From: an uncultured Eubacteriales bacterium
Lineage (GTDB): Bacteria > Bacillota > Clostridia > Oscillospirales > Oscillospiraceae
Length of the DNA stretch: 43,632 nucleotides
Direction of reading: 5' to 3'
NCBI GenBank assembly: GCA_900319275.1
Contig: ONNS01000013.1
Span: 1 to 43,632, forward strand
Positions within the stretch are counted from its first letter, which is position 1. Every line of letters begins with the position of its first letter. Positions 399-2,884 of this stretch are shown piece after piece. Position numbers and translations under genes: made by a program. Below the pieces are notes generated by a model. It worked only from the letters and a program-made list of their open reading frames with translations. It searched no databases and had not been told where the DNA came from.

Positions 399-566
399 AA
401 TTATGCAGTTATTAAAGAATACAGAGTCTTTTATTTTATGCGTTTTTTTAAGCAGCAGACGCAAAAGGAAATCGCCGATAGCATGGGTGTTTCTCAGCAG
501 GCTGTCGGAAAAGAAGAGAAAAAGGCGATAAAAATATTATGGGAGCTTTTGTCGAGTGGTTGTTAA
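399..566 (+). pseudogene. Truncated sigma-factor-like fragment (region 4 helix-turn-helix)
   Basis: The frame ending at TAA 564-566 encodes a segment typical of sigma-70 region 4: TQKEIADSMGVSQQAVGKEEKK, in which QKEIA and GVSQQAV form the helix-turn-helix. The resemblance continues upstream of the only ATG (438) as VFYFMRFFKQQ, which matches the helix preceding the HTH in small sigma factors of conjugative elements. The frame is closed by a stop at 378-380 and lacks region 2, so this is a 3' remnant rather than a full gene. If translated from 438 the product would be 42 residues. The 3' end coincides with a 35-bp tandem duplication. Confidence 0.55.
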
Positions 567-627: not shown

Positions 628-1190
628 ATGAGGGGACTTTTTATTCCTCACAAAAACTGAATATCCGGCAGCATAATAACATCAGCAAACGATGGAGCGA
701 TGAGGACGGTTCGCCAAGACCACCTGTGCAGGATTGCTTCTGCATCAAACGAAGACGATAAGGTGCATAGCGGTTAGACCGATCCAAAAGCGGCCCTGGC
801 AGGCCGTCTCGCAATGATATTGTTCGCCTACAATGGTACCCCTGCTCAGCCTCAGACTCAAGCAAAGGGAGCAGCTCGGAGAGAACCTCGGAGGGGTGAG
901 AGTCCCGGAGCGCGTTGCCAAACGCGGTTATGCTGTGCGCCCACGCCCGGGGAAGTAGTGTCGAATACGGGATAAAAGGCTGCCTGCAAATCGCAGACAG
1001 CCTACCAGTCCAACCCATATAGAGATTAGAGACTCGTCTTAATCGGCACAGAGGGCTTTTATTCTGCCAAAACACTGCAGCCGCAGCGACGAAAGGGGGA
1101 GGATATGAGCTTACGTACCCTCAGACTTCGGGGCATAGGTCAAGAAGTTTTTGTCCCGCCGCTTCACATGGGTGTGTAAGAAAGCTAACA
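628..1190 (+). ncRNA. Candidate large structured RNA upstream of xis/int
   Basis: About 560 nt without a plausible protein gene can be folded by eye into many strong helices. Listed 5' to 3': CACCT 721-725/AGGTG 761-765 enclosing GCAG 728-731/CTGC 740-743; CGGCC 791-795/GGCCG 802-806; ACCC 838-841/GGGT 894-897 enclosing CTGCTC 842-847/GAGCAG 869-874; TCCCGG 903-908/CCGGGG 947-952 enclosing CGCGTT 911-916/AACGCG 921-926 with a GCCA tetraloop; AGGCTG 977-982/CAGCCT 998-1003 enclosing CTGC/GCAG; CTTACGTACCC 1110-1120/GGGTGTGTAAG 1170-1180 enclosing GGGGCA 1130-1135/TGTCCC 1152-1157. Several pairs are G-T wobbles that would be A-C mismatches on the other strand, so plus-strand transcription is favoured. 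Nested multi-helix junctions suggest an ornate RNA of the size class of ROOL or GOLLD, which occur on phages and mobile elements; that assignment is inference. No group II intron domain V or reverse transcriptase is seen. The ends are approximate. Confidence 0.6.
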
Positions 1191-1218: not shown

Positions 1219-1410
1219 ATGACTTACACTACTTTTGAACAGCTTCCTCTGGTAATGTCTGTTGAGCAGTTGGCAAAGGTTCTGGGCATTGGAAAAAACT
1301 ATGCTTATGAGCTCGTCCGCTGCGGTGCAATACAGAGTATTCGCGTCGGCCATCGTTTCCGTATTCCGAAGGAATCGGTCATAGCCTATATCAGCAATCC
1401 GCAAGATTGA
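1219..1410 (+). CDS. xis: Excisionase-family DNA-binding protein
   Basis: A 63-residue protein with a winged-helix HTH of the excisionase/MerR-like HTH_17 type: MSVEQLAKVLGIGKNYAYEL forms the recognition helices and VGHRFRIPKESVIAYI the wing. Such proteins act as directionality factors that bend attachment-site DNA and bias a tyrosine integrase toward excision. The ATG at 1219 follows GAGGATAG at a normal distance. It sits 55 bp ahead of the integrase in the same direction, the usual xis-int order of Firmicutes conjugative elements and prophages. The family is clear; its role as Xis for this integrase is inferred from position. Confidence 0.85.
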   Translation: MTYTTFEQLPLVMSVEQLAKVLGIGKNYAYELVRCGAIQSIRVGHRFRIPKESVIAYISNPQD

Positions 1411-1465: not shown

Positions 1466-2665
1466 ATGTCACGCACACCCAGCCGTGCCGCATCGGGCAC
1501 GGGTACAATTCGCAAAATTTCCGTCAATCAAAACGGGAAAAATTATACTTACTGGCAGGCAAGATACACGACCGGCTATGACCCGGGAAGCGGCAAACAG
1601 ATCCAGCGAACGATTACCGGAAAAACGCAAAAGGAAGTGAGCCTGAGACTTCGACAGCTCACCTCTGAGCTTGATCAAGGAACTTACATTGCGCCGAACA
1701 AAATCACTGTGAAGTCCTGGATGACGACATGGCAGGAAGAATACCTGCAGGACGTAAAGGATTCAACAGCTTATAAGTACAAAGTGGACATTGATAACTA
1801 TATCATTCCACGGCTTGGCGCAACAAAACTGGAGGATCTGGCTACTCCGCTGATTCAGCACTTCTACAACGAGCTGCTTCATCCTAAGAAGCCCGGCGCA
1901 AAGCCTCTGTCGGCTAAAACCGTCCGCTGCATTCACGGGATATTCCACTCGGCTCTATCCAAAGCAGTTCAGCTTGGATACATTCGGACAAACCCCAGCG
2001 ACGCTTGTGAGCTGCCGCGCGCTGTACGAAAGGAGATTGTACCTTTGGAGGATTATCAGATCGCAGAATTTCTGAAAGCCATTGACGGCCATGTTCATGA
2101 GTATCTGTATAAGATCACCATGTTCACCGGAATGCGCGAGGGCGAGGTTCTCGGCTTGACCTGGGACTGCATCAACTTTGAGCGCGGAACGCTGATCATT
2201 CGCCGTCAGTTGGTCCGAGATCGGCAAAAGGGTGGAGAATATCACTTCTCCACCCCGAAAAACGGCAAGATGCGCGTAATTGTTCTTGCTCCGACTGTTA
2301 TCGAATTGTTCAAGGCCCAGCAGATGAAACAGGCACTGATGATGCTGGATGTGGGGAAAAAATGGGAAAACAACAACCTGATCTTCACCAATCCAACCGG
2401 CGGTTACCTCTCTTACAGGACGGTTTACGATTGCTTCAAGCGTGTTATGGTCAAACTCGGCCTGCCGGATACCCGTTTTCACGATCTCCGTCACACTTAT
2501 GCCGTGGCTGCCATTAAGAGTGGGGATGACATCAAAACCGTTCAGGAAAACTTGGGTCACGCCACCGCAGCCTTTACGCTGGATGTGTATGGGCACGTTA
2601 CAAACCAGATGAAGCAGGCCAGCGCGAGCAGAATGGAACATTTTATTAGTACCGTTTCTTCCTGA
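1466..2665 (+). CDS. int: Tyrosine site-specific integrase
   Basis: A 399-residue integrase of the Tn916/phage type, with ATG at 1466 behind AAGGGGG. The N-terminal ~65 residues resemble an AP2-like arm-binding domain (NYTYWQARYTTGYD), followed by a SAM-like core-binding domain (residues ~70-170) and the catalytic domain. The catalytic set is visible: Arg ~224 in TGMREGEVLGL, His-x-x-Arg ~339-342 in HDLRHTYAV, a second His in LGHATAAF, and the nucleophile Tyr ~375 in TLDVYGHV. It cuts and rejoins the element's attachment sites by a 3'-phosphotyrosine intermediate. Its stop is 143 bp from the 3' end of tRNA-Val, the common target arrangement for this family. It appears intact. Confidence 0.95.
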   Translation: MSRTPSRAASGTGTIRKISVNQNGKNYTYWQARYTTGYDPGSGKQIQRTITGKTQKEVSLRLRQLTSELDQGTYIAPNKITVKSWMTTWQEEYLQDVKDSTAYKYKVDIDNYIIPRLGATKLEDLATPLIQHFYNELLHPKKPGAKPLSAKTVRCIHGIFHSALSKAVQLGYIRTNPSDACELPRAVRKEIVPLEDYQIAEFLKAIDGHVHEYLYKITMFTGMREGEVLGLTWDCINFERGTLIIRRQLVRDRQKGGEYHFSTPKNGKMRVIVLAPTVIELFKAQQMKQALMMLDVGKKWENNNLIFTNPTGGYLSYRTVYDCFKRVMVKLGLPDTRFHDLRHTYAVAAIKSGDDIKTVQENLGHATAAFTLDVYGHVTNQMKQASASRMEHFISTVSS

Positions 2666-2808: not shown

Positions 2809-2884
2809 TGGTGGACGATACAAGACTCGAACTTGTGACCTCCCGCACGTCAAGCGGATGCGCTACCAGCTGCGCCAATCGTCC
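2809..2884 (-). tRNA. tRNA-Val(GAC), CCA encoded
   Basis: The 76-nt minus-strand sequence folds into a perfect cloverleaf: 7-bp acceptor GGACGAT/ATCGTCC, D-stem GCGC/GCGC, anticodon stem TCCGC/GCGGG with loop TTGACGT (anticodon GAC at 2849-2851), T-stem ACAAG/CTTGT with loop TTCGAGT, discriminator A and encoded CCA. Anticodon GAC reads valine GUC. The 3' end faces the integrase, so this gene is the probable attB site; it remains intact after integration. A consensus promoter lies directly upstream. Confidence 0.96.

Follow-up and report, generated by a model that had tools for sequence, protein, structure and literature searches.

Within the window (the whole stretch of 43,632 nucleotides that was analysed), the block at 628-1190 is followed downstream by an excisionase-like gene and an integrase gene, so that the mobile-element setting read by a first-pass annotation was found to be right (Table 1). 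Both frames are open. Upstream of the block lies a remnant of a sigma-like gene; its counterpart in L002, the best-scoring blastn relative, encodes a Sigma70_r4 protein (Pfam). As the gene is a remnant, the element may be decaying. A 35-nt tandem duplication at 531-600 overlaps the end of this remnant. The element appears to end beside a tRNA-Val gene which, judging from its position, is the probable attachment site. No second copy of the tRNA repeat was found in the genome and the other end of the element was thus not located, a weak result since the contig starts inside the element. A strong terminator-like palindrome is present on the minus strand at 2780-2807, between int and tRNA-Val.

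Table 1. Features of the RNA locus, in window coordinates.
Feature	Position	Strand	Details
Sigma-70 region-4-like gene remnant	423-560	+	46 residues aligned, 41% identity to L002 protein
Conserved RNA core P1-P11	661-975	+	Full-length R1 match, 315.4 bits, model 1-330 (by construction; the window belongs to the R1 seed)
P1, 5' strand	666-676	+	Counted 666-669 and 672-676; partners 936-939 and 928-932
P2 arm	685-827	+	P2 685-691/821-827 encloses P3-P6; 80.2-100% of cells paired per helix
P3	697-700/809-812	+	Within P2 arm
P4	704-714/770-785	+	Within P2 arm
P5	721-725/761-765	+	Within P2 arm
P5a	727-731/740-744	+	Within P2 arm
P6	790-794/803-807	+	Within P2 arm
pemK RNA segment (RF02913)	830-909	+	AAUGRUAC motif and P7-P9; 50.4 bits, cut-off 34.8
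Conserved joining motif ACAAUGGUAC	830-839	+	Aligns with canT AUAAUGAUAC
P7-P9 unit	842-906	+	P7 842-847/869-874, P8 875-881/887-893, P9 894-896/904-906; 95.7-100% of cells paired
P10, GCCA-capped hairpin	911-926	+	Both-side changes at all 5 counted pairs
P1, 3' strand	928-939	+	From homologue alignment
P11, covarying stem	946-971	+	946-949/968-971; 18-nt loop GGGRAGUAGUGUCGAAUA (950-967)
Hairpin GGCTGCCTGC..GCAGACAGCC	979-1003	+	Common to L002; at the place of P12 in many homologues
Excisionase-like HTH_17 protein	1219-1410	+	Next gene downstream; PF12728, 9.4e-11
Tyrosine integrase	1466-2665	+	PF00589, 1.7e-23
tRNA-Val	2809-2884	-	Beyond int

A covarying RNA core

The first-pass annotation had proposed a plus-strand structured RNA of about 560 nt from helices drawn on the single sequence. 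For the 563-nt block, the predicted folding energy was -180 kcal/mol, with -177.1 +/- 6.8 for its shuffles (z -0.43; 32 of 100 did as well), and its minus strand gave z -1.11 (16 of 100 as good). As neither strand surpassed its shuffles in stability, this list of helices was by itself no proof of an RNA. Homologues were then decisive for the claim: their alignment and the compensatory changes in it, and not the single-sequence fold, confirm that the block contains a conserved plus-strand RNA. By blastn in 99 genomes (own included), matches were detected in 13, own included, and most of the strong ones span approximately 653 to 971. The conserved fold extends over 661-975, and not over the entire 628-1190.

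The structure comprises 69 pairs in window coordinates; the count was made on 29 sequences whose MAFFT alignment was not fitted to it. These sequences were chosen for alignability from 83 dereplicated pattern copies among the matches listed, five of an initial 34 (L021, L023, L028, L036, and L109) being dropped for long insertions. In total, 93.6% of cells were paired versus 34.8-42.1% when partners were slid, a control which is somewhat flattering since the structure was drawn with these homologues in view. Both-side changes were observed at 51 of the 69 pairs (27.8 +/- 2.7 in shuffles). A nucleotide search and a helix covariation test, as the first-pass annotation had suggested in kind, did reveal covariation, 0.403 versus 0.175 +/- 0.007, with none of 500 shuffles as high. 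With a wider set of 30 distinct sequences including copies of the Tn916 family, 94.7% of cells were paired and 63/69 pairs changed on both sides, the alignment being model-fitted in that case. A free scan of column pairs on 94 sequences, also model-fitted, ranked at the top mostly the helices that had been drawn, and it added five pairs outside the model: 841-907 (100% standard), 850-868 (97%), 852-866 (95%), 945-972 (96%), and 683-836 (90%).

In this architecture, P1 encloses the P2-P6 arm, the AAUGRUAC joining strand, the P7-P8-P9 unit, and P10, and P11 follows on the 3' side. The joining strand is invariant at 832-835 (AAUG) and 837-839 (UAC) in the MAFFT alignment A2. P1 is the weakest part, with 89.7% (666-669/936-939) and 77.5% (672-676/928-932) of cells paired, and two outer pairs are mismatched in the window's own sequence. 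Drawn as a single helix 668-676/928-936, it fitted poorly (3 to 31 of 34 per pair in the 34-sequence MAFFT alignment) and was redrawn in two parts. As the P11 loop served as search pattern, the copies so collected were selected for its constancy; it varies among copies found via RF02913. In L138 (5488-5577), two copies of the P11 pattern stand 72 nt apart, and the RNA's 3' end is tandemly repeated there.

The fold first drawn is not that of the conserved RNA, from which the homologue-based structure differs. Its 6-bp stem capped by GCCA was recovered as P10 (911-916/921-926), of which the outer pairs were counted. The junction said to be enclosed by ACCC/GGGT has no consensus pair, and the covarying pair at that place is C841-G907. 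As for the 11-bp stem 1110-1120/1170-1180, the letters do pair, but it lies wholly inside a 75-nt segment (1108-1182), bounded by an 11-bp terminal inverted repeat, that is missing in L002. No second copy of this insert (about 1105-1185) was found in the genome, which gave only 15-nt chance matches, and a repeat family was rejected, weak partial matches being present in 2 of 59 other genomes.

The antisense frame at 641-1075 had been considered a by-product, and we reached the same view. Over 661-975, all 28 aligned homologues carry frame-breaking indels; 22 of them have no antisense frame open across the RNA and six have one. Substitutions by codon position were flat for L002 and L003 pooled (12.4/11.9/11.0%) and without third-position excess for all 28 homologues (27.3/33.3/26.9%). 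An antisense protein gene was therefore rejected, the frame being neither conserved nor synonymously biased.

Sequences flanking the core were also looked at. Upstream of AUAUC (600-660 region of the window), many homologues have a GUGAGGGG-type hairpin and a UUGAAAA element, an ACCG..CGGT hairpin is frequent, and L219 likewise carries UUUGAAAACUGAAUA. A stem of at least 5 bp ends upstream of AUAUC in 45/77 copies among the matches listed (shuffled mean 25, maximum 32). On the 3' side, many homologues show a strong hairpin after P11, named P12, whose strict form with the internal loop GAARCY/YYUUG was found in 44/141 copies among the matches listed. The hairpin at this place in the window has no U-tract.

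pemK RNA and the distribution of the family

The search against all Rfam models that the first-pass annotation had called for was run by cmscan on 400-1500 (4227 families, E <= 5). It returned no ROOL, GOLLD, OLE, HEARO, or group II intron but did return RF02913, the pemK RNA, together with P17 (E 3.8, far under its cut-off), a match due to chance. The suggested kinship with ROOL or GOLLD thus found no support there, and the RNA is not of an undescribed class as had been thought possible, since it groups with RF02913 and with canT of Tn916.

The pemK RNA was reportedly first described by Weinberg and colleagues in 2017, and Rfam types it as a cis-regulator. RF02913 has 61 model positions, whereas R1 matches approximately 250-450 nt, and in the window the pemK match is an internal piece of the 661-975 core. 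R1, which itself includes the pemK part, matched 29 of 29 other RF02913 loci tested (E <= 0.0011). A second model, R2, made from 681-829 (the 5' half) and without overlap with the pemK segment, matched beside 23 of the 29 loci at E <= 0.0013 and beside one more at 0.062; it missed five (L165, L169, L172, L174, and L180). These matches indicate that most of the loci tested hold a larger RNA, of which the pemK RNA is one piece. In the parts of the literature accessible to us, RF02913 is named as a structure benchmark or in a database update, and the pemK motif in work on decoy sequences. A literature search gave no paper joining pemK RNA or RF02913 to canT, which is not proof of absence as many journals are outside its coverage; the main text of the canT paper (PMC11658703), in the portion available, does not mention pemK or Rfam.

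The pattern from the most conserved part was found in at least 119 stretches of the genome collection and in 15 of viral contigs; two hits (L089 and L127) had no R1 match and were dropped as chance. Among the matches listed, R1 gave 94 over 97 sources and 55 over 54 sources, and nearly all records with the RNA are labelled Bacillota. Within genomes drawn from the phylum, R1 matches were present in 25/398 (own included) and 22/267 genera; RF02913 was present in 21/299 phylum genomes and in none of 14 control genomes. R1 also matches two MAG records whose labels place them outside Bacillota, L055 (Bacteroidales) and L032 (Paludibacteraceae), which may be binning errors. All six named records fetched, which carry TndX resolvase, other recombinases, or xis-int, contain the RNA, with RF02913 at or above cut-off (L235 exactly at it) and R1 at 33.9-108.6 bits.

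The gene setting was counted among the matches listed at 144 pattern sites in loci of at least 3 kb, a count that retains duplicates as well as the two chance hits. At 72 of these sites, the first upstream ORF is a member of the sigma-like cluster; at 22, no ORF lies within reach. On the downstream side, the first plus-strand ORF belongs to a serine recombinase cluster at 63/144, is PemK-like at 17, a tyrosine integrase at 15, another ORF at 30, and none at 19. Among the same matches, all 81 sigma-like cluster ORFs lie upstream of the RNA on the same strand. Pfam identified Sigma70_r4, Resolvase/Recombinase, PemK_toxin, and Phage_integrase in the scanned representatives.

Homology to canT and a proposed antiterminator function

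In the work of Wirachman and Grossman (2024, PMC11658703), canT is described as the 452-nt region between orf8 and xis in Tn916 and as a cis-acting processive RNA antiterminator, which works in one orientation and on transcription, with foreign promoters and terminators, requires no other Tn916 gene, is inactive in trans, and is inactivated by the canT(S3) substitution. We searched for the Tn916 excisionase family (PF09035) and obtained ten loci, four of which have both RF02913 and R1 matches. R1 matches two of these, L218 and L219, at 72.9 and 71.2 bits (rough E 1.1e-17 and 3.2e-17), and in both the gene order is sigma-like, orf8-like, RNA, xis, int. Over 460 nt, the L219 region matches pCF10 with 100% identity, and pCF10 is annotated as tet(M) .. 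sigma-70, HTH, RNA, excisionase, integrase. The Tn916-type element of pCF10 also carries Rfam SQ2397 (RF03532, cis-regulator of an HTH factor) at L231:2334-2563, directly upstream of the sigma-70 gene, and two Rfam RNAs thus flank its regulatory module.

The canT sequence (L231) fits 52 of 56 pairs (28-43% with partners slid). The published coordinates fit L219, where orf5 has 83 codons and codon 30 is GCA. Nucleotide 283 after the orf8 stop falls there on ATA at 1311-1313, the triplet with which the RF02913 match begins (base 1), and the published 162-nt deletion (229-390) corresponds to 1257-1418 and takes in the entire pemK match. The canT(S3) site is the first three bases of AUAAUGAUAC, aligned with window 830-832, and AUGRUAC is kept in 30 of 31 aligned rows, the exception being L220. 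Altogether, these results show that the window RNA and canT are homologues by sequence, by structure, and by gene position, and that an inactivating canT mutation coincides with the conserved motif. The window RNA has the RF02913 score, the P1-P10 fold with compensatory changes (P5a is missing in canT), the AUGRUAC motif, and a place between a sigma-like gene, here a remnant, and xis-int.

The simplest explanation would be a function shared with canT, as suggested by homology and one published mutation. We propose, with a probability of roughly 0.78, that the window RNA, situated in the xis-int leader, is an antiterminator of the widespread canT/pemK class in which P11 forms an additional hairpin on the 3' side. 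It would be produced at the start of the excision/integration transcript, would fold while leaving RNA polymerase, and once folded would act in cis, making that polymerase terminator-resistant. Transcription would pass the stop signals beyond the RNA and, after excision/circularisation, continue across the end junction to reach the genes of the opposite end. We infer antitermination by the window copy, its action on the polymerase, and this read-through route by analogy with canT; that P11 contacts the polymerase or a host factor is a guess. Among the matches listed, a terminator-like hairpin lies within 150 nt after P11 in 33/81 homologues, five mononucleotide shuffles giving 0-3; this would be expected of an RNA meant to overrun such hairpins. 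Several observations argue against the antiterminator reading: P11 is unaligned in canT; R2 misses L218 and L219 and four of the six named loci, reaching L234 and L235, which indicates that the 5' arm has diverged; the RNA is present in only four of the ten PF09035 loci; a sigma-like upstream ORF is found at half of the counted sites; the window's own is a remnant; the hairpin at 979-1003 lacks a U-tract; and a scan of loops 3-8 on the plus strand detected nothing terminator-like from the RNA to the int end.

Strong hairpins after P11 (mean -38.9 kcal/mol in 77 folded copies among the matches listed) and the leader position would also suit a riboswitch or attenuator in which P1-P11 responds to some signal and thereby controls formation of the 3' hairpin before the next gene; the P1 3' strand is able to pair with the 5' arm of that hairpin in some copies. 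However, for the one candidate pairing tried, own and swapped partners gave -8.17 and -8.17 kcal/mol (500 of 1000 permutations as good), a control blind to pairing conserved in all copies, and the P1/P12 pairing was left unsupported. Moreover, canT has just a small A+T-rich hairpin before xis and works on foreign promoters and terminators (PMC11658703), and we consider an attenuator unlikely. It is decidedly unlikely that the RNA is an intact-looking relic, inactive in a dead element: the remnant beside the tandem duplication, the 75-nt insert absent from L002, and, weakly as the contig begins within the element, the missing other end would fit a relic, but the RNA retains its helices and P11 loop, xis and int are open, and canT is independent of other Tn916 genes (PMC11658703). 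A trans-acting large non-coding RNA of the GOLLD or ROOL sort, to which size and mobile setting point, is very improbable given the Rfam result on 400-1500 at E <= 5, the position on the same strand just upstream of recombination genes at most neighbour-assigned sites among the matches listed, and the inactivity of canT in trans (PMC11658703). Finally, a DNA site (attachment or transfer origin), which adjoining recombinase genes might suggest, is hardly credible in view of compensatory changes over 14 helices with plus-strand G-U pairs allowed and of an orientation-specific canT acting on transcription (PMC11658703).

Beyond the antiterminator proposed for the window, we are on balance inclined to think that pemK RNA and canT would be one ancient class of processive antiterminators, serving across Bacillota in integration systems that are unrelated (tyrosine integrases, large serine recombinases, and PemK-linked modules) and whose genes would stay silent behind terminators until excision, with a large branch possibly making a second polymerase contact through P11 and its strongly conserved loop. 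An RNA family without assigned mechanism would gain a testable function, and canT, until now a single sequence whose fold was uncertain, gains a covariation-backed structure and many relatives. If true, mobile elements of Bacillota, among them those of Tn916 type with tetracycline resistance, would share a general level of control through terminator silencing and release by RNA antiterminators. To our knowledge, canT of Tn916 is the only class member that has been studied experimentally.

EAR is an Rfam family, and it differs from the window RNA in that the scan of 400-1500 at E <= 5 gave no match besides pemK and the chance P17. EAR, put, and conAn2 have in common with the proposed function RNA-based processive antitermination, as stated in the canT paper (PMC11658703). 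A relation to pLS20 antitermination was rejected on the absence of R1 and pemK matches in 50,000 of 65,774 bases, a scanned part which may not include conAn2. With canT, the differences are that P5a and P11 are not aligned there by R1, that the sequence of the 5' arm has diverged, and that the sigma-like gene of the window is a remnant. The two share the same gene position, a homologous P1-P10 core, the same AUGRUAC motif, and an overlapping meaningless antisense frame, orf5 in Tn916 and 641-1075 in the window.
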